From Kappaphycus alvarezii (Eukaryota; Rhodophyta; Florideophyceae; Gigartinales; Solieriaceae), in contig NADL03000592.1 in assembly GCA_002205965.3 (NCBI GenBank), positions 339,295 to 403,294 on the forward strand: a DNA stretch of 64,000 nucleotides, given 5' to 3'. This document shows, in pieces, positions 3,460 through 55,817 of this stretch. The translations under genes and the position numbers were made by a program. Under the pieces are notes generated by a model. That model made no database searches. It was not told the DNA's origin and saw nothing but the letters and a program-made list of their open reading frames with translations. Within the stretch, counting starts at the first letter, position 1; each line of letters opens with the position of its first letter.

Positions 3460-3642
3460 ACGGGCACGGTGATGGGGGGGGTGAGGGTTTGATTTTGTAT
3501 ACGACGGAGAATGACGGTATGGAGGTGTGCGGTGATTTCGTCCTGTAGGTGCCGGGGGTGGGAGTCCTCCGGTCTGGGCGTACGAGAGATCAGGTTCTCG
3601 AGTTGGAGGTCCGGGGGGAGGGCGAGGGCAATGGCAAGGGGG

Positions 3643-5175: not shown

Positions 5176-5573
5176 CGGTCGGCCGGGGTTCCCGCTGGGG
5201 GAAGGTTACGGTTGTAAATTGCGGCGAATGCATCCGTGGCTTCATCAAGTAATTGGCTCCACTGGCCAGTGCGTGCGAGGAGGATACGTCGCTTGATGGA
5301 GGCGACAGCACTAGGGCGGTGGCGGTTCCGCGGTTCGCCTCGGCCATGAGGAAAGAACCTTGCTAATAGTGGTGTATGGCTAATTGGCAGTTTGTATATG
5401 CTCTAACGCGCGTAACGGATGTGCCGGAAAATCATGGTGGTAGATCTTTATTTGTCATACAATGTCGCACAGAGGCGTGCGGAGGGTATTTATAAATTAA
5501 CTACGGATGCGGGCGGCGGGTAGAAACTTGTCGCGCCTGCATTATTTGGAGACTAAATGCAAAACGGGAAATC

Positions 5574-11519: not shown

Positions 11520-12251
11520 TTTTCAAATGTCTGCCAGCACTGTGACCACCCCTTGGACACCCTCGGGGATCACGCCGCCGACATCTGCTGCCCTGGTTTC
11601 AGCCGTTGTCACCGCTACAACTCGCTATGTAATGCGATTGCGACGCACGTTACCCGCGCCGCGGGTCTGGATACTCGGCAAGAGGTTCCGTTCCTCGTCC
11701 CGGGCACTAAGCTCCGCCCCGCCGATATCCTTGTACAACTAACACCAACGCCGGAAGGCACAACGTTGGGCCCCATTGCCTGTGACATAACCGTCGTTTC
11801 ACCTTTAAGGCCGCAGTTCGCACCAAGGCGACCCAGGTTGCCGAAGGCGCTGCTGAACTGGCGGCCCGCGACAAGGTTACAACACTGGAACGCAACATCG
11901 CCCGACGACTCCCCGCTCCATCGACTGGCCCATCTTCTCCGCCTTACACGCCAAACTTCACGTTTCGACCTCTGGCATTTGATTCCCTAGGTGCCCCTTC
12001 CCCTGGAACTATTGCATTTATCGAGGAGTTAGTTCCGCGGATCGCGTCGAAGTGTCACTCGACAGTTGGCGTTATCCGCCGCCGTATCTACCAGCGACTG
12101 AGTTGCACCCTCTGGTCCTCCATCGCTGAAGCTATCCTGTTGCGAGCCCCGATGCGCATGGACGACGAAGTACATTCGGTTAGATCTTAACCGTATAGTT
12201 AGGACGTGCCCAGTCGAATGTAGATACTGAACGCATTAAACTTCTTCTTCT
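11520..12251 (+). mobile_element. 5'-truncated LINE, 3' end only (copy B1)
   Basis: The fragment starts inside the zinc motif (CQHCDHPLDTLGDHAADIC, C-x2-C-x9-H-x4-C). It continues through the endonuclease core RPADILVQL...IACDITVVSP and a C-terminal tail ending MRMDDEVHSVRS with stop TAA at 12189-12191. One frameshift near 11830 separates core and tail. After the stop, about 60 bases (AACGCATTAAACTTCTTC near their end) are shared with the copy at 17195. Length truncation from the 5' side with a conserved 3' end is the usual signature of target-primed LINE insertion. Confidence 0.75.
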
Positions 12252-17194: not shown

Positions 17195-17791
17195 ATGTTT
17201 AGCACCGGCAGTGCTCTGGCCGTACTCTATCCGTTCCTCGTCCCGGGCACTGAGCTCCGGCCCGCCGATATCCTTGTACAACCAACCCAACCCCGGAAGG
17301 CACAACGTTACGCCCCATTGCCTGTGACATCACTGTTGTCTTACCGTTCAAGGCCGCAGTTCGCACCAAGGCGACCCAGGTTGCCGGAGGCGCTGCTGAA
17401 CTGGCGGCCCGCGACAAGGTTACAACTCTGGAACGCAACATCGCCCGACGCCTCCCCGCTCCCTCAACTGGCCCATCTTCTCCGCCTTACACGCCAAACT
17501 TCACGTTTCGACCTCTGGCGTTTGATTCCCTAGGTGCCCCATCCCCTGGAACTATTGCATTTATCGAGGAGTTAGTTCCACGGATCGCGTCGAAGTGTCA
17601 CTCGACAGTTGGCGTTATCCGCCGCCGTATCTACCAGCGACTGAGTTGCACCCTCTGGTCCTCCATCGCTGAAGCTATCCTGTTGCGAGCCCCGATGCGC
17701 ATGGACGACGAAGTACATCCGATTAGATCTTAACCGTATAGTTAGGACGTGCGCAGTCCCCAGTAGATACTGAACGCATTAAACTTCTTCC
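17195..17791 (+). mobile_element. 5'-truncated LINE, 3' end only (copy B2)
   Basis: A second copy of the LINE seen at 11520, truncated further so that it begins just before FLVPGTELRPADILVQ and lacks the zinc motif. The C-terminal tail ends MRMDDEVHPIRS with stop at 17731-17733. The ~60-base 3' tail is shared with copy B1 up to AACGCATTAAACTTCTTC. Frame breaks near 17290-17350 show decay. Its 3' end lies only about 190 bases before the gypsy gag start, so it may have inserted near or into that element's 5' end. Confidence 0.75.
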
Positions 17792-17977
17792 TCTTGGCAT
17801 TTTGCTGGAGGCTTCGCCTCGTGGGTCGTTAGTCCAAGAACCATCTAGGAGACTCTCTGTTACTTCAAGTGTTACAGAAATCGTGTACACGTATAGCCAC
17901 GTGTGCACGTGTAAAGTCGGAAACTTCTCTCAGATACCAGGACAAACACTGTTACAGCCTTTGTGAACCTAATCCAT

Positions 17978-18919
17978 ATGGATCAGCCGCAAGTCACCCT
18001 AGAGTCCCTTACGCAAATGGTGCTTCAGTTCCAGCAGAATCTTGAGCACGCCAGTAACCAAATTGCGGCACACAGATCAGGGCTTTCTATTGCAGCGCAG
18101 AAAGTATCCTCCTTAGAATCTGAACTCGTAAACGCCCGAAACCAGGCAAGTTCGTCAGGTATTGCCCTAGTGGACAGTCAGGCTGGCACAAAGAAAAGCA
18201 AGCCCACTACATTCACTGGGAATAGATCAATTGCGAACTGGTGCGTTCAAATGGACAACTACCTCGGGGGTAATGATGGCAATGGACCTCTACACATAAC
18301 ACTCAGTTACTTGGCTGGAAATGCCCATGAATGGTGGATGGTCCACTTCAAGACAGAAGAAGGGAAAGGAATAAATTCCTGGCAGACCCTGAAGCTTGCT
18401 TTGATCCAGCGTTTTGAAACGCTGAACAAAGAGAAAATCGCCCGAGACAAACTCGCCCGCTGGAAACAAGTCAAAGATGTTCCTACCTTCAACGAAGACT
18501 TCAACAAAATTATACTCGACATCCCCGATATTGGAGTTAAAGACCAGATAGATCCTTACTCTCGCGGTTTGAAGCCCTATATCTGGAAGGCGTTGTGCAC
18601 CAAAGAATACGTCAACCTCTCCGATCCAATGAGGGATGCTGAGCTAGTAGAGTCGGCCTATCGGCGTTCTGGACCCGGTAACCTACCAAAGTCTTCTGGA
18701 GGAAGGAATGGAAATGGAAGCTCTTTTGCTGGAACAAGCAGTCCTGTACCAGTGGAAATTGGGAACGTAGAAGTGATACCGGGGCTGAAAAGAAACACTC
18801 TTAATTTACAGAAGCTTGACAAAGAATAACGTGAAAGATGTATGCGCGAAGGTCTCTGTCTTAGGTGCAGACAGAAAGAACACATAGCCAAAAACTGCCT
18901 AAAAGCCCGGAAGAACTGA
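17978..18919 (+). pseudogene. gag: Gypsy gag with CCHC knuckle behind an in-frame stop
   Basis: ATG 17978 (MDQPQVTLESLTQMVLQFQQ) opens a gag of about 283 residues with a coiled-coil-prone N-terminus and a retrotransposon-gag core (FTGNRSIANWCVQMDNYL ... WQTLKLALIQRF). A TAA at 18827-18829 interrupts it. The same frame continues as RERCMREGLCLRCRQKEHIAKNC, a perfect C-x2-C-x4-H-x4-C nucleic-acid-binding knuckle, to TGA at 18917-18919. The capsid-like protein would therefore lack its RNA-binding knuckle unless the stop is read through. Confidence 0.8.
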
Positions 18920-19059
18920 TTGAAGGTCCCCAGTCAGTTCCAGTCATTGAAGAACCATTCGACAACCTTTTGTTAGACAAAAAAACTCGGGAGTTATCAT
19001 TGAATCAAACAAAAAGGTCCATTGTGTCCACTATCAGATAGAATGCAACGTTCAGTGAA

Positions 19060-22000
19060 ACATTCTCCCCTGCATTAGAAAGAAATCACAAGGGCCTTCT
19101 CATTGTCAAGGGTACAATTGCTGGTGGACTAGCAAAAATCTTCATAGACCCTGGTGGTGAGATCAACTTGTTGAGTGAATCATTTTGCAAGAAACATCCA
19201 ATAAAGACCCGAGATTCCAGAGAGCTTGCTGAAATGGCCAACGGTGCGGACCAGATACTTCAAGAATTGGTAAATGCTGTCATTGTACATATAACCGCCT
19301 ATACTGAACCTCTGTACTTTGCAGTAAGCCCATTGAAGCGTTATGATGCAATTCTTGGGAAAGAATGGTGCGCCTCGCATGGGGCAAAAATCAATTGTTT
19401 TAATAATGAGGTGAAAATCGAACATAAGGGAAATTCATTCATATTTATTGCTGATGATGCTGTATTGAGTCCTTTTGTATCTTTCAATACCATAGTTAGT
19501 GATTTCCATGAGAAAAGAGAGTTATTTGCAGTTTTATTTAGACCCTTATATTCTAGTGAACCAAGAGCACCAGTATACCCTCGAGACATACACGAGGTTT
19601 TGGAAACATTTGCTGACGTGTTTCCAGAGAAACTCCCAAGAGATTTGCCACCGAGAAGGAAGCAAAACTTTGAAATAGTATTAAAGGAAGGAGCAAAACC
19701 ACAGAAGAAAGGTCTCTATAGACTTTCTGACAAAGAAATGTCAGAACTCCGAAAACAGTTGGACAAACTACTAGAAGCTGAGTTTATAAGGCCTAGTAAG
19801 TGCCCCTGGGGAGCTTCTATTCTATTCGTGAGCAAGAAGGATGATAGTCTACGGATGTGTGTCGATTACGGAGCCTCAAACCGGCTCACTGTCAAAAACA
19901 GCTATCCTTTACCACGAATTGACGACATTTTCGACAAGCTTTAAGGAGCGAAGTTCTTCAGCAAAATTGATCTTAGATCTTGGTATCACCAGATTAGACT
20001 ATACGAAGATTCGATTCGATTTACCGCCTTCAGAACACGATACGGGCACTTTGAATGTCTTGTTCTGCCGTTTGGACTCACTAATGCCCAGCAACTTTCA
20101 TGAACCTAATGAATGATATTTTCAAGGATCAGCTCGACTTATTTGTGATCTTCTATCAGGATGATATTCTCATCTACAGTAAGACATGGAAGGATCACTT
20201 GGATCATATTCGAATTGTACTCGAAATCCTCAGAAAAGAAAAATTATCTGGCAAAGTATCTAAATGTGTCTTGGGAGTTACAGAAGTCGAGTACCTAGGA
20301 CACATCATTTCTCAAAGTGGTATTTGATTTGATCCAAACAAGATAAGTGCAATCATGGAATGGCCGATACCAACGAATAAGCAACAAGTACAGTCTTTTC
20401 TTGGTTTTGTCAATTATTACCGGAGGTTCATAAAAGGCTGTTCAATTCTTGCAAAACATCTCACAGAATTGACGAAAAACGTGAATTTCCAATGGAGCCA
20501 CACTCAAGATGATGCCTTCAAAGTACTCAAGCAAACACTTTGTAGCGCACCGGTTCTCAGAAATTTCGACGCCACACTGCCTATCTACGTAACCACAGAT
20601 GCATCACAGTATGCAATTGGTGCAGTGCTGGAACAGGAAGAATTAGGTTCCAAAAGGCCGGTCGAGTTTGCATCCAGGACTCTTAATGATGCGGAAAAAA
20701 ACTATGCGGCCAATGAAAGGGAACTTTTGGCCATTGTAGATTCCCTCAAGTGGTGGAGATCATACCTTTATGGTAATTCATTCACCATTCACTCGGACCA
20801 CTATCCCCTACGATACCTAGAAACCCAAGAAAACTTGTCCCCGAGACAAGTGAGATGGCTGGAAAGATTAGTTAATTTCGACTTCAAGATAATACCCATC
20901 TCAGGAAAATCAAATGTAGTGGCGGACGCCCTATCGAGGCAACCACAAGATGTGCCGCCGCCTGATCACCGAAACAATTCATTACTTCAAGAAGTTATTA
21001 CCAAGAAATACTCAGAATCCAATAACATTTCGACCATATCATTCACGAACACTGAGTTAGTGGGGTTGGTAGAAGATTATGGTAGGGATGAGAACCTCAG
21101 AACCCAGTACCAAGATCCTAAAGCTCCCTTTGAGCGTCGAGGGATGCTTCTACTTAAAAACAAGAAGATCTGTGTACCAGAAGGAAATTTCAGAGTCAAG
21201 CTCCTGCATGACTATCATTGCACTCCCAACACGGGACACCTAGGAATAAGCAAAACTATCAACAGAATATCACCAAAGTTTTATTGGAAAAATTTAAGAT
21301 CGGATATAATCCGATACGTACGTTCCTGCCAATGCCAGAGAACCAAAGCAACCAAGCAGGAACCCGCAGGTCTTTTACAACCACTAGAACCACCGAAAAC
21401 CAAATGGACCCACATAACCATGGATTTCATCACACCTCTCCCAAAGTCGAGAAGTGGAAACAACGGCGTGTTAACAGTCGTTGACAGACTTTCTAAGATG
21501 ATCAGAATAATACCAACGAAACCAAACACAGATGCTCCTGAAACAGCACTGCTGTTCAAGAATCACGTATACCGAAATCATGGATTACCAGAGAATATCA
21601 TATGTGACCGAGATCCCATCTTCATGAGCAAGTTTTGGACAAAACTTTTTGCTCTACTAGGAACAAAGATATCCCCCTCCTCTGCATACCACCCACAAAC
21701 TGATGGACAATCGGAGATAATGAACAGGAAAATAGAGGAAATGATCCGTGCTTTCGTTAGCTTCGACAAATCAGATTGGGATAATTTCCTGGTAGACTTT
21801 GAAGTTGCTTACAACTTCTCTGTGAATGTCACCACAACTTTCTCACCATTTTTCCTCAATTACGGAATTCAATCACGAACAGTACCCTTAGATGTTTTAG
21901 CGTCAGACGATCCAGCGGCAGCAGGTTTTCTAAAACATATGCAAGAAGCATTAAGGAAAGCCCAGAATCAGATCCGAAAATCCAATGAGTCCACCGCAAA

Positions 22001-22488
22001 ATATGTAAACAAGAAAAGAAGGCCGTCTACGTTCAAGATTGGTGATAAGTGTTGGCTATCAACAAAGAACTTATCACTTGAAGATGCGGCTGGATCACGC
22101 AAACTGAACCCAAAGTATTGTGGTCCCTTTGAAATAACAGAGGATATTAACGGTGTAACTTACCGTCTGCAGTTATCTCAACCGATGATCGACAGAGGAA
22201 TACATAATGCCTGCCACGCTAGCCTCTTGAAACCGTTCTTTGAAGATGAATTCAACCGACAAATTCCACCACCGCCGCCACTCCAATTTCAAGATGGACA
22301 TGAGGAATACGAAGTTGAGTCTATACTCGCTCATAAAAAAAACGTGGAAAAAATAATTCCTTGTCAAATGGAAAGGGTACGGAGATCATGAGAACTCGTG
22401 GCTTCCCGAATCATACCTCAAGAATTCACAAGAACTTTTGAATAAGTACAAGCAGAACCTCAAGAATCGGGGCGATTCTTCTCTGTAA
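19060..22488 (+). pseudogene. pol: Gypsy pol: protease, RT, RNase H, integrase, chromodomain
   Basis: The protease region has [17 protein letters not shown], where the usual D-S/T-G triad reads [20 protein letters not shown] (motif A) and FYQDDILIYS (motif C intact). RNase [22 protein letters not shown] and [10 protein letters not shown]. Integrase: zinc pattern HDYHC...HLG...CQCQRTK, then [20 protein letters not shown] and MNRKIEEM carrying the D, D and E positions. Chromodomain: [11 protein letters not shown] then, after a one-base shift near 22350, [21 protein letters not shown] ending at 22488. Defects: TAA after FDKL (about 19942), frameshift and stop near 20095-20110, and TGA after SQSGI (about 20326). 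Replication enzymes by family; inactive as read. Confidence 0.85.
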
Positions 22489-25599: not shown

Positions 25600-26429
25600 C
25601 ATTGCTGCGAGTATTTGCAATGGCAAACTCAGGAGAGCCGCGAAATTCGGATTGTCGCGCGACTCTGACTACTATGGGTCCCAGCCCAAGGTGCGGATGG
25701 TTATGTAGATAGCGCAGGGGGGTAAAGTAGCAGGACGATTTCTCACTTTACTACTTGTGTTACTCCTTGCACCCCCGCGTCGGGGAGAAGGACGGCTACC
25801 TTGCCCTGCTAAAATACGGCGGCACAATTCCAACCCCTCCGAAGCTTACAGTAAAATTGTGAGACGATGGCAGCTGTAATGCTGCCCTCAACAGCTACTC
25901 CCCCAAATTTCTCCCCCAAACATCCAAATACCACAACAAAACTGTTTATTCCAGTTCACAACGCCCCAGTCCCATCACATACACGTGGCACTTTCCTTCC
26001 TGGATCACACAACATTCCCTTTCATAGAAAAAAAAACCGCACACCATCAATTTAACAAAACCCAAAATACCACACAGACACCCAAATATCATTAACACCC
26101 ATCGCAATCCTGAGTGAATTTTTCGCCCCCACCGTCCCCACACCCCACCCTCATCACCATAGAAAAAATACCCACCCAAGTCACCACACCCACCCAACCC
26201 CGATCACCCTACCAACCACCCCATCAAACCCCATTCCCGCCCAACCCCATAAACAGATATCGCCCCAAATCAACGCCCCATCATCCCACCCCCTCTCATT
26301 TCCCACCTCACAAACCCATATCACCCACTCCCCACCCTATCCACTCCACCACCCCCACCCCCCTCCCACCCAATCCAACTCCCATCCCGCTCCTCCATGG
26401 GCACACAACAACCTCCCCCACTCCCGCTG
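25600..26429. other. C-rich, G-poor low-complexity region
   Basis: From about 25890 to 26440 the plus strand is made mostly of C, A and T with words such as CACCC, CCAACCCC and CCCAC, and with very few G. It directly precedes the oxidoreductase remnant. No coding motif is seen, although a long open frame runs through because stop codons are rare in such sequence. Confidence 0.6.
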
Positions 26430-27632
26430 CCCGTTACATCATCCGCGCCTACGGCGACTTTGCAAACCTCAAACTCGAACATGAGGTTCTTCCGCCCCCG
26501 TACGTCCAAACCATCACACCCCACTTTCCCCACGCACCCCGATCCAACATTTCTACCCTAACCAACCCACCATTCCACCCATCCACACCCTCAGAAACCA
26601 CACGAGGTGCGCATCCACACCCGCGCCATCGGTATGAATTTCGCAGACTGTTTCGCCCTGCTCGGCCTATACGACCTTGCAGGGCAGCCTCCATTCACCC
26701 CTGGTTTGAAGTCTCTGGTGTCATTGATGCCGTCGGTAATGAGGTCGCTGATTTTCGCCCTGGTCATCGTGTATGGGCTATACGTCGATTCGGCTGTTAT
26801 GCCACTGCTGTGAACATTGATGGTGAGTATGTACGTCGCATTCCTGACGGTTGGACCTTTGCGGAGGGTGCCGCGTATCCTGTACAGGCGTTTACGGCGT
26901 GGTATGCGCTTTGTGAGTTGGGGGGTATGCCGAGTGTGGTTGAAGGGAGTGCTGGCTTGTTGACGTCGGAGAGGAGGGCTGTGTTGATTCATTCGGCTGC
27001 GGGGGGTGGGCAGTAAGTTGGTGGCTATGGTGAAGGAGATTGGTGGCATTCCGATTTGTACGGTTGGTAATGAGGATAAGGCCCGGTTGTTGGTGGAGCA
27101 GATGGGGGTTCGGAGGGAGCAGATTGTGGTGAGAGGCGTGGATGATGCTGCCTTGGGGCTGGAGAGGACTATGAGGGAGCGCGCGTTGGGCGGCGTTGGG
27201 GGGTCGATGTCGTGGTGGATTCGGTGTTGGGGAGGTATTTTGCACCTGGGTATGCGCTTTGAATCCTGGTGGAAAGTGTATTGTGATGGGGAGTGCGAGT
27301 ATGATGCCTAGTGGTGGGATTAGTTTATGGAGGCTGTCTGGGTGGCGTAATTTGGTCAAGCTGGGGTGGAGAAGGCTTTGGCGACCACGGTTGGACCTGG
27401 TGCACTCGATTAACGAAAACAAGTCGGTGGCCGGGTTCAATGTCGGGGATCTGTTTGGGCAGCGGGCGCTGATTCGAAGGGGTTTAAAACGTTGGATGAA
27501 ATGAACGTGGGAAAGCCGATTGTGGGACGGGGTTTCATTTTTCGGATGCCGTAGAGGCGCTCAAGTATTTCCAGAGTGGCACAAGCGTGGGAAAGGTGGT
27601 GCTGACATTGGATGACGCGCCGAATCCATGAG
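26430..27632 (+). pseudogene. VAT1-like / zinc-independent quinone oxidoreductase (MDR family)
   Basis: Pieces in order: YIIRAYGDFANLKLEHEVLPPP (N-terminus), HEVRIHTRAIGMNFADCFALLGLYD, PPFTPG, FEVSGVIDAVGNEVADFRPGHRVWAI, EGAAYPVQAFTAWYAL, VLIHSAAGG (Rossmann glycines), GGIPICTVGNEDKARLL, NPGGKCIVMGSASM, NKSVAGFNVG and VEALKYFQSGTSVGKVVLT. The GFN block and the FQSG-VGKVVL ending resemble synaptic-vesicle-membrane VAT1-like members of the medium-chain dehydrogenase family, which reduce quinones or enals with NADPH. Frame changes near 26706 (TTT run), 27010 (GGGGGG run), 27195, 27260 and 27480-27540 break it. 26480-26590 may be an intron (acceptor CCTCAG before AAACCACACGAG). It may be a real gene with assembly indels. 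Confidence 0.7.
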
Positions 27633-27760
27633 CAAGGGGTATGTTGCAATGTGGTAGTTTTGTGACAGACGGGCGGAATGGGAGAGGTGGAAACGTGCAC
27701 CGGATGCGGTGGGTGTTGACAGCAGAGTGTGCGTGGTAGTGTTTGAGAGAAAGAGACCTT

Positions 27761-29638
27761 TTATTTCATGACTTCTGGAGGGGGATCAGGCAAGAGCCCC
27801 GTCTGGACGTCAGGTGGTGGGGTACGTTCTCCGTCTTCGTGATTAATCATGACTGCGGTGTACTGTAGAACAAATGAGACACGTGTCTTGAGCTTCCGGA
27901 ATTCAGACATAGGATGCTTCCCTCGGCGGTAAGCAGTGAAGTTACTCATGTCATGGAGCGAGCGCCTGGAGTACGGTTGCCCAAATTGTCCGTAAATGTC
28001 GATGGCCATAGGTAGAAGCTCCATACCCTCGGCACGACAGGGTAGCGCATCGTGTTCCCTTTTGCGCTTTTCGGCTCGTGTCAGTGCTGAGAGACCTCCA
28101 TCTGCCTGGTTGCGATATGATGCCGAGTGAGGACTGACAATCGTGACGTCAATACCCTGTAGTGTGGGCGCGAATAAGGGGTCGTCGATGAAGAGGTCCA
28201 GTGCGCGTTGCTCGGCTGGGCTCTTGTGAAGGTCGGCGGCAAAGACTCGCTCCCGAATTACGGTGAGGGAGATGGCCGGGCTAGTAAGTTCCCGGTAAAG
28301 AATATCCCGAGGACGGTTGTGACGGCGCACCGCACCCACACCCCCTTTGCAAGTGGATACCGTGGTGGCCCACGGTATCCAGGAGCGGGGGAACAGTATC
28401 GTTACCTTCCAGGCAGGTAGGGCAGCGCCTGAGGCCGCAGAATATTGGGTTACCTAAGCGAAGGTCGACCATCGTGCGCCATAGCTCCCCTGAGTGTATA
28501 GGTCAGTGGACGGTAGCGGAAGTGTTGAGAAGGGAGCGGAAGCCTTTGAGGAGGTTGTCGAGGCGAGCCGCGTAAAAAAATGCGATGAAGAGGTGGAAGG
28601 GGCCGAAGCGCGTAGTAGGGAGAGGCGTGAGCGGTGGAAGTGACTGGTGATTTCTTCCTGGAGGGAGCGAGCGGCGTTGTGGTCGATGTGGTTCGATCGT
28701 GACAAGAGTGCCTCTAGTCGTAGTTCTGCAGGGAGGTTCAAACTTGTGGCCAGGGTGTCGTAGGATGGGGCCAAAAGCCTGGCAACATGCGTGGAGTTTG
28801 TGTGCAGTAGACGCCGAATGAGTGGCATGTTCGTCAGATTGGAGACCTTGTATGCGATGACGTTGACGGAAGTGCATGGGGTGAGCCCGAGGCCGCCATG
28901 GCGGAATGGTAGCGTGGCTTGTAGCCACGCGATGTCCGACATCTTCCGGTGAACTTGCTCGAAAACCCTTCGCAACCCCTTGTCAAAAGCTTTGGCAAGT
29001 GGGAAGGTAATGTGCGGCGGGGTTGAGCGGAACAAGTATATAACCAGACATGAGGAGGCACAGAATCGGAGAGTGTGGAATGAGATCCGAGGCTCGTTCA
29101 TGGCTGTGAGGGATGTCCAGAGGACTCGGCCTTCTGCAGTGCTTTGATGGCCAGGGAAGTGCATGCATCCAGGGTGCCAATCGGGCTACCAAGAACCGTG
29201 ATAGCTTCAGAGGCGAGAACGTCGCATGGCAGGTGACGTAGGAGAGCGTGTGGTGAGGGAGAGGGCCACCAGGCCGACGTTTTGTTGAGGTTAACATGGA
29301 AGCCGAAGTTCGGGCCGTTCAGGCGCAGGTAGTGGAGAACGGCGTGGGCTTGTGAAGTAGGAACAATCAGTGTTCCATCGTCAGCGTACCATGTGTGAAG
29401 CGGGAGGGCAGGGAAATTGGATGCTAGTCCTTGTGCAAGGGGGTGGAGGGCAATAGCAAAGAGTAACATGCCGAGGGGGTCTCCCTGTTGGGTGCCAGTT
29501 CGACTCCATATGAGGTGACGGCCGAAGAAGAGGCGGGAAGGAGCCCCGTAGAGGAAGTGGACCCATCGTGCGGCCGCCGGGATGCGGCGGATTGCCTGAG
29601 AGAGAATTTTGGAACGCTCGATTGAGTTAAAGGCGTTT
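27761..29638 (-). mobile_element. LINE D: 3' half of a LINE split by the RHS-like insert
   Basis: The coding text begins in RT motif A (NAFNSIERSKIL) at the insert boundary. It continues through TQQGDPLGMLLFAIAL (motif B) and WYADDGTLIVPTSQ (motif C), the thumb, a zinc pattern (CPTC...DTVGHHG) and the endonuclease (LDLFIDDPLFAP, GIDVTIVSPH) to a stop at 27761. Frame breaks near 29110, 28460 and 28340. It matches LINE A in order and is the downstream half of the element whose upstream half lies at 32332-34402. About 28763-29638 is repeated almost exactly at 51503-52378. Confidence 0.85.
29634..29638. repeat. Target-site duplication, left copy (CGTTT)
   Basis: CGTTT directly left of the insert start TGAAAC; identical to 32327-32331. 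The same junction is repeated at 52374-52378. Confidence 0.65.
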
Positions 29639-29707
29639 TGAAACATTAGAGGTACATGGTCTTTACTCCATCTGAAAACCGATACCTCCAATCCTCTATT
29701 GATGTCA

Positions 29708-29885
29708 TCTCCTTCATCCATTCAAGCCTTAAATGGTGCAATGACCTATCGATTCACGACCCTTCAGCCATTCAAATATTCAAAGGACACATATATTCAA
29801 AGTAATCTGACACTGGGCGTCCCAACGTATTGCATTCAGCATGATAGCATGTACCGAGGTTGCAACGGTCATTCACCTGTTTCAC
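29708..29885 (+). repeat. 178-bp direct repeat, left copy
   Basis: Runs from TCTCCTTCATCCATTCAAGC to CACCTGTTTCAC. It lies about 80 bases downstream of the NTPase stop codon in gene orientation. It matches 32150-32327 colinearly (offset 2442) with a C/T difference near 29840 as the only change I noticed. Similar copies follow the stop codon of array units 1, 3 and 4 (from about 52447, 58546 and 61553). Confidence 0.85.
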
Positions 29886-29963
29886 CATAGACACCCCGCA
29901 TCGATTGACGTCCGCGTCAATGCTTCTATTAAAAACAGGCACAGCCGCACAACCAGGAGGCTT

Positions 29964-31903
29964 TCAACCCAGATCTATTGTTTGCTGCCTTTGGAATTCA
30001 TCAAGAAGCGCAGTCGTTCGATCAATACCTTCCAACAGATTTCCGGCTAGAGACATATCAGACACGTTCTCCACCCTTAGTATCACACGATGGCCAAAGA
30101 AGTCTAACGCCGCTTTCGAGTCGCGAAACCTTATATGAGCGTCACGATTAGTTATGGCAGTTAGCACAGGCTTGCTACGCCTTAGTATGGCTTGGACTTC
30201 ATCACAGGAATACTTGTCAAGTAAAACTCGTTTCAGGTTATCCAGGAATTTTCTAGCTCCGTCTTCGTCAATTGGCACTGTCTTGATCTCCTTACTAATT
30301 GACTTCGCATTGTACCACGTCGTCTTGCTCGTTGCAAAGTCAATAAATGGAAAGTTATTTGCAGCAGGACGATATACTCGTAGCTCTTCTTCATCCATCG
30401 AAGCAATTCTTTGGTATGCACTGCTGTGATCAGCATCTGAAACGTATTGAATTTCAGCTTTCCGCCCTTGTTTCTCACAAAGCCATTCAAACGCAAAGTC
30501 TTCAAATTTGTCCTTCCTCAAGACCTCAATGCTATGCTCCAGACGGTCACGAAGAACAGTATTGCTATGGGGGAAAGCTGGAAAGCAGCGGGATGCCGCG
30601 ATCTTTCCTTCCATGTCCTGAATGTCAACGTCTTTGGGCTCAAAAAGAAAACTCTTGACGATGCAGATGCTGGGTGCTTCTCGAGAAGTGGTCTGTACTT
30701 CCCTCGGAGAGCCTTGTACAGGTCCGAATCAGTGAGCTTTTCGGTACTTACTTCAGCACCCTGTAGGCACCCTCTGATTGCTAGTCCAAACAATTCCGAT
30801 GCGAAGACAAGGCGCGGGATAGCTCCAACGAGCCAATTCTTTTCTCGACTTCGCTCATCTTCTGTTCCATCGTATTTAATTCACCGATCTGCCATGGGTG
30901 CGGAGACTTCTCATCGTCCCACAGAACTCTCGTCATAGCTAGGACCTCTTCTTCCGTAGGCATCGACGTCACAGTAGAGTGCCGTCTTTTTCCCAGTTCC
31001 TGAAATGCTTTTCAGCATTGTTTGAAACAAACTTGAGAACTCGGCACCACCCATTGACGAATACCCCTTCTTCCGGAGGATCAATTACTGCTACTACCCG
31101 CTGCTCCTGCTTGAACTGTGAACGGGAGAAATCGTCGGTCGTTCCGCTCCATACCCGGTACTCACCGTCTTCTTTTGGTAAAAACAGCAGCATTTCTCCG
31201 ACTTGTACCCAACGTACAACACAGCACTCTTGCGGTAAAGAAGAGCCTGTATGGCGTACATCATGGAGCCTCTGGTCTTGCCGATGCCTGGTTGACCGGT
31301 CACAGCTACGCATATCTGCTGCAACGCGTCAAGTGCATGGCGCACAACACTCCTGCTTTCTTCACGAGTGATGGTACAAGGTGAACCTTCTTCACTGTCG
31401 CGATCTAAGGCCATAACGTTATGCTGCACGTAAACTCCATGTCCAAGATGTTCTACGCGGACGTTTTCCCCTTGCGCTATGCTAACTTCACTTTTTGAGG
31501 CCAAAGCGTCTTGAAGTTCTTCATGTAGTTCTACGAGCTCTTGCGCCAGAAAGTCAAACCTCTCTTCGCGTTTCCAAGGCACATCATCATCAATCTTCTC
31601 GCCTTGTACAAACTCGCGAGCCACATCTATCCCAGCGTCCTCGAATGCCGATAGTCGACTCCTGACAATGTCCGAATACGTCCGGTATCGTGCTCCTTGT
31701 CTCTCTCTCAAGAAGTGGAGTGAGAATCTACCGCAAAATCGAACTGCATGAGAGGGCCGCTGTGTTGGATGGCGGGACTTGACATGCGAAAAATCCTTCG
31801 CAGTAGACAGACGCCAATATTTGGCGACCCCGAGAGCTGATGTGAAGCATGGCAAAGCTTTGGCACTGCCAACGCTGAAGCGGCGAGAACAGAATGTAAC
31901 CAT
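29964..31903 (-). pseudogene. RHS/Crinkler-type P-loop NTPase, unit 0
   Basis: ATG 31903 (MVTFCSRRFSVGSAKALPCF) begins an Arg/Ser-rich leader that resembles an organelle-targeting peptide. Then come a helical stretch (FLAQELVELHEELQDALASK), GQPGIGKTRGSMMYAIQALL (Walker A), LYVGYKSEK, the variable segment TTDDFSRSQFKQEQ, VVAVIDPPEEG (Walker B-like), MPTEEEVLAMTRVLW and a C-terminal domain of about 280 residues ending QQTIDLG. Walker A, the D-P strand, the MP-x-EE block and an IPR motif match RHS/Crinkler NTPases. Frame breaks lie near 31310, 31187 (T-run one base short), 31050, 30825 and 30560. The 30825 lesion is shared with units 3 and 4. In trypanosomes RHS proteins are nuclear/perinuclear; the role here is unknown. 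Confidence 0.7.
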
Positions 31904-32149
31904 TGGACCTTAAAACCAAATCTAGTGTTGCATTTCCGCCAGTCTTCTTTCCGAGCTCTTGGAGTTTGTGCTCACAAAAGATGTAAAACAATCCTCGCGA
32001 TGTTGATTCTCGACTGTTGATGTCAAAACTGTACTGTAATGCCCCAGAAAGCAGTCTTGCAGGGTGACGCGCCCTACTGTACCCTTGGGTACAGCATTAC
32101 ATGAAATACACCAATGATTCGTTTCATAAAACTCTCATCTTGCTCTCTC

Positions 32150-32327
32150 TCTCCTTCATCCATTCAAGCCTTAAATGGTGCAATGACCTATCGATTCACG
32201 ACCCTTCAGCCATTCAAATATTCAAAGGACACATATATTCAAAGTAATCTGACACTGGGCGTCCCAACGTATTGCATTCAGTATGATAGCATGTACCGAG
32301 GTTGCAACGGTCATTCACCTGTTTCAC
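32150..32327 (+). repeat. 178-bp direct repeat, right copy
   Basis: Same sequence and orientation as 29708-29885. In this copy it is followed immediately by LINE sequence, whereas elsewhere it continues into CATAGACACCCCGCATCG and the next NTPase gene. It is therefore the truncated start of a further unit. Confidence 0.85.
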
Positions 32328-32331
32328 GTTT
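32327..32331. repeat. Target-site duplication, right copy (CGTTT)
   Basis: CGTTT follows the insert end GTTTCA, overlapping the last C of the 178-bp repeat match. It is identical to 29634-29638. Confidence 0.65.
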
Positions 32332-34402
32332 CGGGCATCAACTTGAATGAGCACGTGGGGGTGTAATTGTTCTGCAGTTCGTGTATGCGTGCCCGAGTGG
32401 CATGGACGATGGCTTCTGTAGCACACGGGACACCTACACAGAGTTGATGGGGCTGCAGGTAGTTGGCCAACTCTTGATCACCTCGAATTCGTTTCATTAC
32501 CAGGCGCCCCAAGTCGACGGATGGCAAGGCCAATGGCTATGGGGCGGAGGGTGCGACATGCTTCATCTTTCGGAGGCCAATAGGGTAGCGCTTACGACAT
32601 ATTCACTAGTCTCAGTGGGGCAATTCCCGTCGACCAGACTGTTGATGAAGGCAGTGAGCCACTTGAGGGCCGAGTTCGAGGGCTCGGCCCCGCCAGGGGC
32701 GTGTACAAGAGCCTTGAGTATGGAGGGGCGAAGTCCATCCGGGCCAGGACTGCTGTGGTACGGGAGTCGTCGCAGCTGGCGGCGGACTTCGGCTTCGGTG
32801 AACTTGTACGGCGGGGGCAGGGTACCTCTGTCGGATCGGTTTGCGGGATTGGAAGGAGCGGGATGGAGGGACCGGAGCTTGTCGGCATTTGCCAAGGTGG
32901 GCGGGACTGGTGGGGCTGCAGCAGTGAGGGCTTGGGCGGCTTTGTGTGGAGAACCGTTGAGCAATGCCCGCTTGCAGCGGTCTTGTTGGGATCGGATGGG
33001 AATTTCTTTGCGGTGGAGGACTGCGCCAAAGGTCAGCGGCTTCGTCAAGGAGGTGGGACCACTGCCCCTCTTGTGCTAGTCTGATCCTTCGCTTGAGGGA
33101 GGCGACTAGGCTCGGGCGATGCCGGTTTCGTGGTTCACCTCGGCCGTTCTTGCGTAGAACCAGTTTCGCAAGGGCCATGATTTTGTAGAGGTTGTCAGTG
33201 CGTGCCTGTGTAGTGCGGGCCTCAACGAATCGCCTGCAAAGACTTGCCACCAGGGTGAAAAGGAAGGCGAAGGGAATTTGGAAGATAGGGAAGGGTAGGG
33301 ACAGGGAGTGGAAAGACAATCGAGGGAGGCGGACATCTATGGGTAAGTCCAGAGGTTGGGGCAGCCATTACTCGAGGAAGAGGGCGCGGGTGTGAGGCTT
33401 CCTCCATGTTAGAGTCTGGTTCAGGTCAGAGGAACGTAGACGTTTGGCAGGACCAGGATTTTGAGGAGGGGATGGAGGAGACGGGTTGGCGGCGGGGTTG
33501 GCGGGATTGGCGGGTGGGGCGAGCTCAGGGTAGCGGGCCGTTATGTCCGTGATGGAGGAGTGCAGCACTTCTATGAAGTATTGCTTGGATCTCCAGGCGC
33601 AGGCGGGGTTGGAGAGGCGCGCGACCTCGGCTTGGAGGGTGGGTAGGAGGATTGGGCCGCTGCAATGGAACGGCAATGAGAAATGATAGGGGAGGGGGGA
33701 GAAACGGTGATGGGGGGAAGGAGGATTCTGAGTGGCCACGGAAAGCGTCGTAGGTGGATTGCGTATGTTGGATGGAGTCGGCGGCGGCGCAGACGAAGGT
33801 TGCGTGTGGATCGGCGGTGGGGACGACGGTGATGGAGCCAGGGAAGCCCCAGCGGTTAAGGCCTTACGGAGGGACAGGGCGTTGCGGAGTGGGCGCTGGT
33901 CGCGTGTGTGGAGACCAGGGCAAACTCCTTTGGCCCGTTGTTGACAAGCCGGACGGAGAGCGGTTTATTTTCCTCTGCAGCGTCGGGTGGGTCGGCGGAG
34001 CAACATTGGGCGGCGGGTGTGTTGCGACCTAGCAACGGAAGACGGATGGGCGGGGATTTCGGCGCTGGCTGGCGGAGAGCAGCGGCGAGATAGGGCGAGG
34101 GAGCGTGATCCGGTGCGGCAGGCGGCATGGCGGGGGGGGAGAGACGTCGGCGATTTGGCCAGGAACTTGGCGACGTTGGCGGCCTCGGCGGTACTTCGGA
34201 GGAAGCCAAAGGCCGTGGATAGCGCTGAGTCAGAGCGCTGCAGTTCGAAGAGGGGAAGGAGCGTCGCGGGCCGCGAGATCGGTAACTGCCGAAAGACGTT
34301 GGACGAGGTCCATGAACAATTGAGGGAGGCGTGTGCTGCTTGGCGCATCACATCCTGCGACGGTGGCGCAGGCCCCCCCGCGGCAGGTTCGGGGGCAGAC
34401 AT
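32332..34402 (-). mobile_element. LINE D/F: 5' half of the split LINE
   Basis: ATG 34402 (MSAPEPAAGGPAPPSQDVMR) opens a proline/alanine-rich N-terminal region. It continues via TLTWRKPHTRALF, then RNRHRPSLVASLKRRIRLAQEGQW, DRCKRALLNGSPHKAAQAL, RRLPYHSSPGPDGLRP and GVPCATEAIVHATRARI. It stops inside RT motif A at HVLIQVDAR, where the RHS-like insert begins. Frame changes near 34210-33860, 33370, 33050 and 32560. Together with 27761-29638 this makes a LINE of about 4 kb, the same family as LINE A. Confidence 0.85.
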
Positions 34403-37836: not shown

Positions 37837-39415
37837 ATGTCAGCGCGGGACGGGATATCATCAGAGAGGAGGAAGATAATGATAGCTGCGGGCTTGCTTG
37901 ATGGGCATACGAATACGGTCCAACTTCACCTGGCGGATAACTTCGGGAGCAGTGACAGCACGTTTATGGAGTATATTAGGGAGTCCTACAGGATGAAGCG
38001 AAGCTCGGTAAGCGATAATGGAGGATCCTTGGTTGACGGTGGAGGGAGAGAGGATCTGGAACTGTCAGAATGGCAAGAGTATCAGGCGAACGACAACATG
38101 GCGTATGAAATCGATGCGGTCTCGTATGGGAGCGGCATTGCGGTTAAAGATAAGTTCTTCCAAAGTGGTAAGTGTACGCGTACATCACAAATGCGAATGA
38201 AAAGTACGCGTACCTTCTGATTTTCGAATTCTCCTATCACCACCAAAGTGCACGTCGCGAGAAGTTTCTTTTCAGACTTTTGCGATTTCTATCCCGGACG
38301 GGGGCGCTGCGCCAAAGATTCGCGTTATTACTCCTGCTATGGAAATTAGTACACATGTGCGGGCGATGAACAAATTGAGCGCTTGCATCTTGTGATTATG
38401 AAGCGGTTCTGCCAAAAAAAATCCTGATTTAGCAGTTGCTACCTCCGGACCTGGCGCTCGCGATGGAAATCAAGCTCTAAATTCTTATTTCAACCGTTCG
38501 GCGCGTATCTTGCTGACCTGACTCAAATGGATTGCGTACCCGCGGCAGTTGTGATCGGTACAAAGTGCTTGTACGGCGAAGAGTTGGCGCGAAGGGTCGA
38601 TTCGTACTTCATAGGATCGAACGCGCATTTTAGGAAGCTTGATCGAGTCTCGGAGGTGCTTCCTGGGCTACAGTGGGGCCTGAATTTTCGAAAGCCTCAT
38701 GAAATAGAAAACATTCCGCGAAAGGAAGCGAAGGGACCAGAATAACGGTCATCGCATTGCGGTTGCAATATTAGCTGGGTACATTTATGGTGTCTGGCTG
38801 GTTCAGTTGACTCAAGTGAGTAAGAGAATGCCACGTGTTGACCACTGAGTTGTGGTCGACGTGAAGAGGAATCTGATCTTCCATAGCGCCGAGAAGTTTC
38901 CAATTCGCTTCACGGACGAATCTCTGGAGCTGTATGGTCCTAATACGCCCAAGCTCGAAGTAGTTGAAGTGTTGTAACTAGTTCTGGAGTAAATTCAAGT
39001 GACGTCCGGGCTACATGGATCCAATTTTCTGTTTAAACTTGAAGTTGGCCGCTTGCAATCGTATTTCGAAGCTCCGCTCCGAACATTGGCTTCCTCAGGG
39101 CGTCAGTGAGATTGTGCTGACTTCGGACGAACCCGATGTCGGAAATGACTTTGTCGCGGAAGCCTTCACGTGCTGGGCAATATCCAGAATCATGCGCTTT
39201 TCGGAGGTGCGCTAGCCTTTTGAAATGACGTCAAAACGGCTTTGCTGTCGGGTAGCAGATGGACTGGTACTCGGCGGCTGAGAACGGGCTCCTGCTCTTG
39301 TTCGACGGCAATAGCGACATCGAAAATATCGCTAAACGCGATTACCTCCCCGGACAATGCAGACCGAGAATCTCAACGCACCCTGTAGGATTTGAAGAAG
39401 ACTGTATTTCTTGAG
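37837..39415 (+). pseudogene. Unrecognised gene remnant with a probable intron
   Basis: ATG 37837 (MSARDGISSERRKIMIAAGL) runs to DKFFQSG. There a consensus donor GTAAGT (38168) pairs with acceptor TTTCTTTTCAG (ends 38275). Beyond it TFAISIPDGGAAPKIRVITP continues in protein-like composition, but the splice phase is off by one. Further pieces: KNPDLAVATSGPGARDGNQA, MDCVPAAVVIGTKCLYGEEL (38527-38745), VDVKRNLIFHSAEKFPIRF (about 38860) and MDWYSAAENGLLLLFDGNSD (about 39260). These look like successive parts of one decayed protein ending where copia sequence begins near 39400. No family recognised; it could be a host gene or a transposon ORF. Confidence 0.35.
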
Positions 39416-39525
39416 TCTCACGACCAGAATACCGGGGAGTGTTAGTCATATCCTAGGTGACCCAGTCGATTCGACTCAAGTCAGTATGGTAGTTTAAGTT
39501 TCAAATACTGTATGTGAGTGATCTC
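39400..39525 (+). mobile_element. Ty1/copia 3' end and LTR start, fragment
   Basis: 39402-39515 matches 47578-47693 with scattered differences. Both copies end the polyprotein with TTTCTTGAGTCTCACGA-type sequence, followed by a GGGGAG tract and (T)GTTAGTCATATCCTAGGTGA, the apparent LTR start at about 39439. Only the first ~85 bases of LTR are recognisable. Confidence 0.7.
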
Positions 39526-46591: not shown

Positions 46592-47700
46592 GTGGTCCAG
46601 ATTGCAAGCCCTCAAGCCCCATCGGGTGAAGATACAGTACCAAAAATAATAGTGAGCGACAAAAGAAAATTTACCTTATTGTACAGTACAGTACAGTGCC
46701 TGCTGTTTAGCAGCGAATCAGATCAAAAAAAGATCATCAAAACTAGCTCTGCCGATGGCAGTACAGTATTTGTGCCCATTGCACTACAGTATCGTCCTCT
46801 CACAAAGCTCATACATCTCTAAGCTTTCCACCCTTGCTGAAGACTCATTGTTTGAGGACTGCCGCTCCCTCCGTGCAAACCTTGCTTGGGCCACTCAAAC
46901 TCGCCCAGATATTTCTTGTGCCGTCGCCTTAGCTGCCCAAGTTACAGAAAACCGCCTTAGCTGCCCATGCTACATAGAATCAATTCGATTCAGACAAAAT
47001 GACAAACCTTAACAAGATAGTGACGCACGTCCAAAAACATCTTAACATATCTCTTTCGTACCCTCGCCTGGATAGCAACTCCCTCCGCATCACCGTATAC
47101 TCTGATGCCGCCTTCTCCAATATTGCTGATATTACCTCTCAACTAGGTTTTGGTATCTTATTACTGGACGCTCTGGACAAGTATCATATACTACACTGCT
47201 CCAGCAAGAAAATTCATCGCGTCGTTCGCTCTGGTCTAGCAGCTGAAGTACTTGCATTTGCAGATGCCTTTGAATTTGCATATACACTTCGAATGGATCT
47301 CCAAACATTCCTCCGCCGAGACATCCCTTTGAATATGCTTACAGATTCGAAGTCCCTCTTTGAAGTCATTACAAAATGGTCTTCAACGGCAGAAAAAAGG
47401 CTTATGGTAGATATCACCGCTGTTAAACATATCTACGATCGCAACAACAATTCAAATGTAGGGTTTGTGAGCACATTTGCGAACCCAGCCGATGCCTTCA
47501 CCAAGGTAAACCGCTGCTCCGCCTTGACTACCATCCTGAAGAACCAAACTTGTTCGCTCCCTATAGAGCAATGTATCCCTGTATTTCCTGAGTCTCACGA
47601 CTAGAATAACGGGGAGTTTTAGTCATATCCTAGGTGACCCAGTCGATTCGACTCAAGTCAGAATAGTAGTTTAAGATTTCAAATACTGTATATGAGTGAC
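46592..47700 (+). mobile_element. Ty1/copia 3' end: RNase H and 3' LTR start
   Basis: RNase H text with one frame change near 46990: LRANLAWATQTRPDISCAVA, VYSDAAFSN...SQLGFGILLLD, RVVRSGLAAEVLAFADAFEF, LNMLTDSKSLFEVITKWSST, EKRLMVDITAVKHIYD and ANPADAFTKV, ending PESHD at 47604. D, E and D catalytic positions (SDAAF, AAEVLAF, TDSKS) are present. The stop is followed by GGGGAG and an LTR-like start at about 47615 that matches 39439 onward. RT and integrase of this copy are missing. Confidence 0.8.
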
Positions 47701-51502: not shown

Positions 51503-52378
51503 GATGGGGCCAAAAGCCTGGCAACATGCGTGGAGTTTGTGTGCAGTAGACGCCGAATGAGTGGCATGTTCGTCAGATTGGAGACCGTGTATGCGATGAC
51601 GTTGACGGAAGTGCATGGGGTGAGCCCGAGGCCGCCATGGCGGAATGGTAGCGTGGCATGTAGCCACGCGATGTCCGACATCTTCCGGTGAACTTGCTCG
51701 AAAACCCTTCGCAACCCCTTGTCAAAAGCTTTGGCAAGTGGGAAGGTAATGTGCGGCGGGGTTGAGCGGAACAAGTATATAACCAGACATGAGGATGCAC
51801 AGAATCGGAGGGTGTGGAATGAGATCCGAGGCTCGTTCATGGCTGTGAGGGATGTCCAGAGTGACTCGGCCTTCTGCAGTGCTTTGATGGCCAGGGAAGT
51901 GCATGCATCCAGGGTGCCAATCGGGCTACCAAGAACCGTGATAGCTTCAGAGGCGAGAACGTCGCATGGCAGGTGACGTAGGAGAGCGTGTGGTGAGGGA
52001 GAGGGCCACCAGGCCGACGTTTTGTTGAGGTTAACATGGAAGCCGAAGTTCGGGCCGTTCAGGCGCAGGTAGTGGAGAATGGCGTGGGCTTGTGAAGTAG
52101 GAACAATCAGTGTTCCATCGTCAGCGTACCATGCGTGAAGCGGGAGGGCAGGGAAATTGGATGCTAGTCCTTGTGCAAGGGGGTGGAGGGCAATAGCAAA
52201 GAGTAACATGCCGAGGGGGTCTCCCTGTTGGGTGCCAGTTCGACTCCATATGAGGTGACGGCCGAAGAAGAGGCGGGAAGGAGCCCCGTAGAGGAAGTGG
52301 ACCCATCGTGCGGCCGCCGGGATGCGGCGGATTGCCTGAGAGAGAATTTTGGAACGCTCGATTGAGTTAAAGGCGTTT
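51503..52378 (-). mobile_element. LINE E: duplicate of the split LINE's 3' half
   Basis: Almost base-for-base the same as 28763-29638, including the break in RT motif A and the adjoining CGTTT/TGAAAC junction at 52374-52384. It keeps TQQGDPLGMLLFAIAL and WYADDGTLIVP and stays open for about 330 codons because one of LINE D's frame breaks (near 29110) is absent here. It ends at 51503, joined to unrelated sequence next to LINE G, so the endonuclease end is missing. The two loci derive from one insertion event that was later duplicated. Confidence 0.85.
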
Positions 52379-52704
52379 TGAAACATTAGAGGTACATGGT
52401 CTTTACTCCATCTGAAAACCGATACCTCCAATCCTCTATTGATGTCATCTCCTTCATCCATTCAAGCCTTAAATGGTGCAATGACCTATCGATTCACGAC
52501 CCTTCAGCCATTCAAATATTCAAAGGACACATATATTCAAAGTAATCTGACACTGGGCGTCCCAACGTATTGCATTCAGCATGATAGCATGTACCGAGGT
52601 TGCAACGGTCATTTCACCTGTTTCACCATAGACACCCCGCATCGATTGACGTCCGCGTCAATGCTTCTATTAAAAACAGGCACAGCCGCACAACCAGGAG
52701 GCTT

Positions 52705-54667
52705 TCAACCCAGATCTATTGTTTGCTGCCTTTGGAATTCATCAAGAAGCGCAGTCGTTCGATCAATACCTTCCAACAGATTTCCGGCTAGAGACATATC
52801 AGACACGTTCTCCACCCTTAGTATCACACGATGGCCAAAGAAGTCTAACGCCGCTTTCGAGTCGCGAAACCTTATATGAGCGTCACGATTAGTTATGGCA
52901 GTTAGCACAGGCTTGCTACGCCTTAGTATGGCTTGGACTTCATCACAGGAATACTTGTCAAGTAAAACTCGTTTCAGGTTATCCAGGAATTTTCTAGCTC
53001 CGTCTTCGTCAATTGGCACTGTCTTGATCTCCTTACTAATTGACTTCGCATTGTACCACGTCGTCTTGCTCGTTGCAAAGTCAAGAAATGGAAAGTTATT
53101 TGCAGCAGGACGATATACTCGTAGCTCTTCTTCATCCATCGAAGCAATTCTTTGGTATGCACTGCTGTGATCAGCATCTGAAACGTATTGAATTTCAGCT
53201 TTCCGCCCTTGTTTCTCACAGAGCCATTCAAACGCAAAGTCTTCAAATTTGTCCTTCCTCAAGACCTCAATGCTATGCTCCAGACGGTCACGAAGAACAA
53301 GTATTGCTATGGGGGAAAGCTGGAAAGCAGCGGGATGCCGCGATCTTTCCTTCCATGTCCTGAATGTCAACGTCTTTGGGCTCAAAAAGAAAACTCTTGA
53401 CGATGCAGATGCTGGGTGCTTCTCGAGAAGTGGTCTGTACTTCCCTCGGAGAGCCTTGTACAGGTCCGAATCAGTGAGCTTTTCGGTACTTACTTCAGCA
53501 CCCTGTAGGCACCCTCTGATCGCTAGTCCAAACAATTCCGATGCGAAGACAAGGCGCGGGATAGCTCCAACGAGCTCAATTCTTTTCTCAATTTCCGCCA
53601 TTTGCTCCTCCACCGTATTGAGTGTATCGATTTGCCATGGGTGTGCAGACTTCTCTTCGTCCCACAAAACTTTTGTCATCGCGATGACCTCTTCCTCCGT
53701 AGGCATCGACGTTACCAGCAGAATGCCGTCCTTTTCCCAGTTTCTGAAGTGTTTTCAGCATTGTTCGAAACAAATTTGAGTACTCGGCACTCACCCATTG
53801 ACGAATACGGCCCTTCTTCAGGAGGATCAATTACTGCTACTACCCGCTGCTCCTGCTTGAACTGTGAACGGGAGAAATCGTCGGTCGTTCCTCTCCATAC
53901 CCGGTACTTACCGTCTTCTTTTGGTAAAAACAGCAGCATTTTCTCCGACTTGTAGCCCACATATAGCACGCACTCTTGCGGTAAAGAAGACACTGGATGG
54001 CATACATCATAGAGCCTCTGGTCTTGCCGATGCCTGGTTGACCCGTAACTGCAACCCTAAAACGATTCTGCAATGCGTCCAGTGCATGGCGCACGCAACT
54101 CCGACTTTCTTCACGAGTGATGGTAGCTGTCTTACCTTCTAGCCCATCAATATCAAGTGCTTGTACACCGTATTGCACGTAAACACCATGTCCAAGATGT
54201 TCTACGCGGACGTTTTCCCCTTGCGCTATGCTAACTTCACTTTTTGAGGCCAAAGCGTCTTGAAGTTCTTCATGTAGTTCTACGAGCTCTTGCGCAAGCG
54301 AATCCAGGTCTTTTTCCCGGTCCCATTCCACTCTGTCTAAAACCTCTTCGTCTCTCACAAACTCACGAGCAACCCTGACGCCGGCGCCTTCGAAAGATGG
54401 TAGACGCCCGTTCTGTCGCGCATCCGGCTTCCCACGGGGTGGTTCGGTACAAGACACCGTAATCGCGCGCTTGATTGGTAACAAGCAAAACCGCGAAAAG
54501 GGCCGTTTGTCAATACGGAGAAGATTTGAACGAAAGGATTTACCAGCAGGCGCGCCTGAAGAAGCTGATAAACACGCGGGCTGAGCACTTATGGTGGTGA
54601 ACAGACGAAAGTGGCAAACAAAAGCGTTGTACGAATGACGGAAGGCGGTAGGCATCGCCCGGGACAT
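52705..54667 (-). pseudogene. RHS/Crinkler-type NTPase, array unit 1
   Basis: ATG 54667 (MSRAMPTAFRHSYNAFVCHF) opens the type-A leader, Arg/Ser-rich and transit-peptide-like. VTGQPGIGKTRGSMMYAIQC is intact. A base change plus indel near 53965 shifts LYVGYKSEK out of frame, and one A is missing near 53755 in NAEKHF. The C-terminal 333 residues (52705-53706, from MPTEEEVIAMTKVLW through GAIPRLVFASELFG to QQTIDLG) are open without interruption. Sequence left of about 53566 matches units 0, 3 and 4. From 53566 to about 53760 it matches unit 2 instead, so this copy is a recombinant. Confidence 0.75.
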
Positions 54668-55385: not shown

Positions 55386-55817
55386 GTGAAACAACAGAGG
55401 AACATGGTCTTTACTCCATCTGAAAACCGATACCTCCAATCCTCTATTCATGCCATCTCCTTCATCCATTCAAGCCTTATATGCTGCAATGACCTATCAC
55501 CTCACGCCCCTTCATCCATTCAAGTACTGTCGACAGTGACATTTGAAACGGATAAATTCACAATCATCTGGATGTGGGGCGTCCGAACCCAGTGGCTGCA
55601 ACCTGCTAGCATTAGACGAGGTCAATGGTCACTAAACCTGTTTCACCATAGGCACCTCGCATCAATTGACGTCCGCGTCAATTCATTCTCACACCAAAAA
55701 AAGGCACAGTCTCATTTCTACTCGAGGGCATCACATTCCCACATCCTGTCGAGACCGAGTACAAATCCAAAACGTCGTTAACATATCCTTGTTCGTTACT
55801 ACACCACCGGGGAGCGC

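Follow-up and report, generated by a model that had tools for sequence, protein, structure and literature searches.

The 64,000-nucleotide stretch of Kappaphycus alvarezii DNA analysed here (the window) covers positions 339,295–403,294 of contig C588 and reaches the end of that contig, in an assembly of 336 Mb and 884 contigs. Within it a 2,688-bp block (29639–32326), which contains a broken gene of the retrotransposon hot spot (RHS) type, interrupts a long interspersed nuclear element (LINE) inside motif A of its reverse transcriptase (RT), and it is this block and its relatives elsewhere in the genome that we describe. The LINE lies on the minus strand, with its 3′ part at 28096–29633 (reverse transcriptase, PF00078, 1.1e-08, supported by related LINEs; 29633 is the junction side) and its 5′ part at 32332–33145, assigned from the alignment with a related LINE and from the joined reading frame. 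The block starts with TGAAAC at 29639 and ends with GTTTCA at 32326, and it stands between two copies of CGTTT, at 29634–29638 on the left and 32327–32331 on the right, which we read as a 5-bp target duplication. When the LINE flanks are joined with a single CGTTT, the reading frame stays open across RT motif A (...HVLIQVDARNAFNSIERSKILSQ...), and the alignment with a related LINE at ~3.7–5.3 kb of the window passes the junction point without interruption. Both this arrangement and the restoration of the LINE frame upon removal of the block had been described in a first-pass annotation of the same DNA, and are confirmed here. The related LINE (RVT_1, 3017–5345) is ~64% identical and intact at the homologous place.

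Comparison of the window with itself revealed a direct repeat of 178 bp (29708–29885 and 32150–32327, 99.4% identical), which other copies show to be most of a 246-bp long terminal repeat (LTR) running from TGAAAC to GTTTCA. The element in the block is on the minus strand, as are all its parts. Its 3′ LTR (29639–29884) is complete, with 246 bp and TG...CA ends, as delimited by family alignment and by solo LTRs. Next to it lie a C-terminal piece of the broken RHS-type gene (29964–30614), a 216-aa open frame corresponding, by alignment with other copies, to the C-terminal region of the gene, and an N-terminal piece with a P-loop (31094–31903), a 269-aa open frame with a weak nSTAND3 match below the cut-off. 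At the far end is a remnant of the 5′ LTR (32150–32326), of which comparison with family copies shows the first 177 bp to be present and the last 69 bp, together with the primer-binding site and part of the leader, to be gone; the identical deletion form is found on C204, C860 and C589.

The layout common to the family is an LTR of ~246–259 bp, a primer-binding-like site, a leader, one RHS-type gene in sense orientation and a second LTR. Three copies are structurally complete, namely C588:97k (3,099 bp, LTR pair 98.4% identical), C11 (3,244 bp, 98.0%) and C619 (3,260 bp, 100%), and all three have direct LTRs with TG...CA ends. The C588:97k copy also has two antisense frames, one of 238 aa and one of 150 aa. 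In the C608 copy (L041 911–3200) the 5′ LTR is split by ~2.1 kb of other DNA and the LTR pieces have 8 bp in common (positions 87–94 within the 177-bp part), a pattern that an 8-bp duplication made by a nested element would give. A further nested insertion, of ~5.7 kb, breaks the right-end LTR on C589 (L034 8636–8671, L035 4386–4527) between LTR positions 38 and 36.

One copy of the gene has an unbroken frame of 647 residues which scores above the Pfam cut-off for RHSP (PF07999), and three long frames exceed this cut-off of 25 bits, with scores of 26.2, 27.7 and 26.1. Shorter gene pieces fall below it, and many copies of the gene are broken. RHSP and nSTAND3 are the only Pfam domains in the gene. 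Walker A and Walker B motifs are present, a feature of the P-loop nucleoside triphosphatase (NTPase) of RHS and Crinkler/RHS-type (CR) proteins, and it is possible that the NTPase is followed at the C-terminus by a PD-(D/E)xK-like nuclease domain. A sequence search of solved structures gave matches of E 0.54 or worse. With Foldseek, the whole protein had one match below E 0.001, a ClpB, and the C-terminal domain alone had none below that value. The LXLFLAK header motif was absent from the two proteins tested (those of L037 and L049), which makes the name 'Crinkler', given to the unit by the first-pass annotation, too specific.

The 5′ LTR is followed, one base further on, by TGGTAGCATCGCAACAAG (TGGTAGTATCGCAACAAG in C588:97k), which resembles a primer-binding site. 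The sequence TGGTAGCATCGC, one base from the LTR end, is common to the RHS elements and to a gag-pol element and is a candidate primer-binding site, which we presume to be akin to the acceptor end of initiator methionine tRNA. A 19-base pattern spanning the LTR end and the primer site occurs 527 times in the genome at ≤2 mismatches, against one occurrence of the reversed pattern; the locations covered were about the first 100 of the 527. A 25-base version characteristic of the RHS elements is found 48 times at ≤3 mismatches, against none for the reversed control. A genome search with the 647-aa protein gave at least 76 matches, grouped into 50 RHS loci; 68 of 417 candidates were scored, and the counts of RHS loci are lower bounds. 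At 32 of the 48 sites an RHS match starts less than 2 kb downstream on the same strand (950–957 bp downstream in 18 of these), and 32 of the 50 scored RHS loci have an LTR end and primer site just upstream. These 32 sites include tandem units and correspond to 21 separate places, of which 7 are arrays known to belong to the LINE site and 14 are not. No static parental RHS gene was clearly recognised among the scored matches of this lower-bound search.

A 5-bp target duplication was found in all seven insertions with both outer ends readable, and its sequence is different each time: CGTTT in the window, CCCAC on C11, AACTG at C588:97k, CCGAG on C619, GAATC on C608 and, around two solo LTRs, TTTTT (C585:5.29M) and AGCCC (C585:2.006M). 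The TTTTT duplication is less certain, as it lies inside a T run and next to a mutated end. The seven do not include insertions that have lost one outer end (C719, C598:1.27M, C458 and C462) or the C467 array. The outer flanks differ among the copies away from the LINE site. Solo LTRs are the usual outcome of exchange between two LTRs. The LTR search scored 40 of 105 candidates, which makes these genome counts lower bounds too, and seven diverged LTR matches (C736, C858, C746, C662, C120, C748 and C24) stand outside the reading. Elsewhere in the genome, then, the same ends are found with 5-bp duplications of other sequence, and the view taken in the first-pass annotation, of a non-autonomous mobile unit with an RHS-like gene on board, holds in outline. 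The family appears to be mobile, or to have been so recently, and its TG...CA ends and 5-bp duplications are consistent with an LTR-type integrase supplied in trans, as had been supposed.

Several of the inserts at the LINE site are tandem arrays with one LTR per unit. In the window, a second copy of the left flank of the LINE with an identical junction (51503–52378, minus strand, 99.2% identical in the self-comparison) places a second left junction 22 kb from the first, and the block that starts at 52379 opens an array which continues to the window end. By family comparison this array comprises four units on the minus strand, spaced 3.0–3.1 kb. Unit 1 (52379–55386) consists of an LTR (52379–52625), an RHS-type gene, a leader and a primer-binding-like site, CTGGTAGCATCGCAACAAG, which was located by sequence reading and by the genome pattern search at 55368–55386, beside the LTR end GTTTCA. 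Unit 2 (55387–58477) has a diverged LTR (259 bp, 81% identical) and a diverged RHS-type gene, and is followed by unit 3 (58478–61483) and unit 4 (61484–64000), the latter cut by the window end, which is the contig end. Elsewhere, C523 has two LINE junctions ~9 kb apart and C312 has five primer sites at 3.1-kb spacing. The array units are mosaics of types, and unequal exchange between LTRs would be the simplest source of such arrays.

Searching by tblastn with the gag and pol of L051, a Ty3/gypsy element on C1, against the three complete copies and the window block found no trace of either (best E 4.9), whereas a gag-pol element of the window (17.5–22.9 kb), the positive control, gave E 8e-165. 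L051, the one non-RHS site read out of the 527, has gag (Ty3_capsid), protease, reverse transcriptase, RNase H and integrase domains between LTRs of 361 bp that are 99.4% identical, with the duplication GCTGG. It differs from the RHS element in carrying gag-pol, and is like it in the GTTTCA at the 3′ end of the LTR, the primer site CTGGTAGCATCGC that follows and the 5-bp length of the duplication. Its presence shows that the genome contains an element with suitable machinery for integration and the same primer site, and L051 is a plausible helper. The Ty3-type gag-pol element of the window (17963–22391; gag, protease, RNase H, integrase) is ~33% identical to L051 in pol, and terminal repeats belonging to it were absent from the window self-comparison. 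A possible LTR for it, the 565-bp direct repeat at 11687–12251 and 17230–17794 (94.7% identical), was rejected by eye.

We regard it as highly probable that the block represents, in damaged form, a family of non-autonomous LTR retroelements which carry one RHS-type gene and lack gag and pol. In the first-pass annotation an RHS-like gene had moved into a retroelement; the insertion into the LINE stands, but the traveller would not be the gene alone, being instead an LTR retroelement with LTRs and a primer-binding-like site. Movement of a solitary RHS gene by a borrowed integrase is ruled out by the LTRs found. In the mechanism we propose, the LTR would drive a transcript on which a tRNA would prime at TGGTAGCATCGC, a fitting primer being one that ends GCGATGCTA(CCA), and gag, reverse transcriptase and integrase would be supplied in trans by a Ty3/gypsy relative. 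The integrase would have put one copy into the LINE, tandem arrays would then have been made by unequal exchange between LTRs, the 5′ LTR of one unit type would have been partly deleted, and the LINE locus would have spread across several contigs through segmental duplication.

The age of the union between gene and LTR was approached through the two lineages of the family. Differences between them are in excess at third codon positions (254 of 526, for example, between C588:97k and the C204 copy, p 1e-12), and the unit-2 lineage compared with the others gives ratios of non-synonymous to synonymous substitution (dN/dS) of 0.21–0.35 at dS 0.69–1.14, for pairs with at least 8 differences and more than 150 codons. 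Identity between the lineages is ~81% in the LTR and ~73% in the gene. A further lineage, C500, with 57% protein identity, also has an LTR end and primer site upstream. Since LTR and gene have both diverged and the protein is constrained, the two were probably together before the lineages split, and the element lineage has probably had the gene for a long time and did not capture it recently. The divergence of the LTR is uneven along its length, as recombination would give, and this clouds the argument for an old association.

A number of observations weigh against the explanation as a whole. Eighteen of the 50 RHS loci have no primer site upstream; 12 of these are explained by deletion of the 5′ LTR, by truncation or by contig ends, and six (C43, C447, C467:2.077M, C598:1.28M, C622 and C736) are unexplained, C43 and C622 having a 3-mismatch site downstream of the RHS match instead. 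The polypurine tract ahead of the 3′ LTR is weak, only GCGGGGTGTCTATGG; tRNA scans of the window and of 18 of 51 loci found no tRNA, and so no primer, in those sequences; and no movement of the family has been observed. The LTR body of L051 is dissimilar to that of the RHS element and starts with TGTAAC rather than TGAAAC, the match between the two being confined to the LTR end, the primer site and the length of the duplication. With regard to selection, several young pairs have no third-position excess (C719 versus C608, 5 of 16), and dN/dS rises to 0.68 in pairs with the C619 copy, which fall outside the comparison of the two lineages; this suggests that recent copies may decay neutrally. 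The dN/dS values are also biased downward, because only open frames were compared.

Other origins of the structure have to be set beside that of an LTR element. The ending of the contig inside an array and the mosaic of two types in unit 1 might suggest an assembly chimera, or ectopic recombination, instead of an insertion. However, among the 30 loci from the LTR search the left LINE junction recurs in 8 places, spread over 7 contigs, and the right one in 6, each on a contig of its own, so that the junction is not a lone assembly join; together with the target duplication and the restored LINE frame, this disposes of an objection foreseen in the first-pass annotation and renders such an artefact scarcely credible. 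Recurrence at so many places could in turn speak for several independent insertions at one LINE site, with specificity for RT motif A. The LINE-plus-insert copies nevertheless have common flanks far outside the LINE, parts of the window between 23.3 and 36.3 kb matching C523, C860, C598, C63, C826 and C204, and other insertions sit in different flanks. Flanks that are common so far beyond the LINE point to a single insertion multiplied by segmental duplication, so that repeated insertion is very improbable in general and refuted for the copies compared. The LINE thus appears to have been hit once, the multiplication of insert-bearing copies being due to segmental duplication and to tandem arrays spaced by LTRs, not to repeated moves into LINEs. 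The TG...CA ends and the 5-bp duplications occur with Tn7-like transposases as well, which counts for a DNA transposon whose RHS NTPase-nuclease would itself cut and paste the unit, the LTRs being subterminal repeats. NTPase and nuclease proteins linked to transposable elements in prokaryotes, described in PMC5289972, would also suit such an origin. We consider it very improbable, given that LTRs in direct repeat, complete at either end, solo LTRs, LTR-spaced arrays and a primer site that a gag-pol element has at the same place are features of LTR elements, and that Pfam finds only RHSP and nSTAND3 in the gene.

If the family is indeed one of LTR elements, it may still be asked what the gene does in it. 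An LTR element could have taken up a host RHS transcript by passive capture, the gene hitchhiking ever since without function, as do retroduplicated genes of the nucleotide-binding leucine-rich repeat (NLR) class in plants, captures of which are reported in PMC5664825. The many broken copies and the young pairs without third-position excess are what would be expected of a passenger, but the parallel divergence of LTR and gene at dS ~0.7–1.1 with protein constraint kept, and the upstream LTR end and primer site of the C500 lineage, point to an old association, and we hold passive capture to be possible, if rather unlikely. More tentative still, and in our view doubtful, is the idea that the RHS-type NTPase-nuclease is a working part of the LTR element, for example in cDNA handling, in the choice of target or in attack on rival elements. 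Were it so, the RHS/CR family would live on as part of a retroelement's gene set and would exemplify, in a living organism, the exchange proposed to take place in eukaryotes between mobile elements and CR toxins.

Outside the element, the GC skew of the window switches from −0.38 to +0.42 between the adjacent kilobases of 26001–28000, and a frame near this flip has a weak alcohol-dehydrogenase-like match below the cut-off. A repeat of ~121 bp, 93% identical, lies at 39402–39521 and 47579–47699.

Gene capture by LTR elements is already well known. Our literature search, which left subscription journals largely uncovered, found no report of an LTR element with an RHS or Crinkler gene. In pepper (Capsicum), NLR genes lie inside LTR elements of which ~72% have neither gag nor pol, according to PMC5664825, and maize Bs1 carries gene pieces, as noted in PMC13317346. 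The RHS element is like them in its LTR structure, in having a host-type NTPase gene inside (in the case of pepper) and in the trans help they would need; it is unlike them in the RHS-type cargo, in uniting at least two diverged gene lineages under one LTR family and in that no parental gene was recognised. The extra open reading frames of bdelloid LTR retrotransposons, as PMC5408684 presents them, add to the conserved ones, whereas in the RHS element the gene replaces gag-pol.

The protein itself has its closest counterparts in two other groups. With CR effectors it shares an architecture of NTPase and nuclease-like C-terminus, and some CRN genes of Phytophthora infestans are linked to Helitron-rich regions (both from PMC5289972); the RHS element differs in the lack of LXLFLAK in the two proteins tested and in being carried by an LTR element and not by a Helitron. 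RHS/CR genes multiply fast, and the family would be a direct vehicle for their spread and for their clustering with mobile DNA, so that LTRs and 5-bp duplications around RHS/CR genes are a simple sign to look for in other genomes. The RHS family of trypanosomes, as described in PMC7563717, resembles the gene of the RHS element in its RHSP protein, its multigene nature, its many pseudogenes and the recombination between its variants. There, RHS genes are the targets into which retroelements insert. In the present case the RHS gene is the cargo of an LTR element, itself lodged in a LINE, so that jumping DNA would be transporting a type of gene otherwise familiar chiefly as one into which such DNA jumps.

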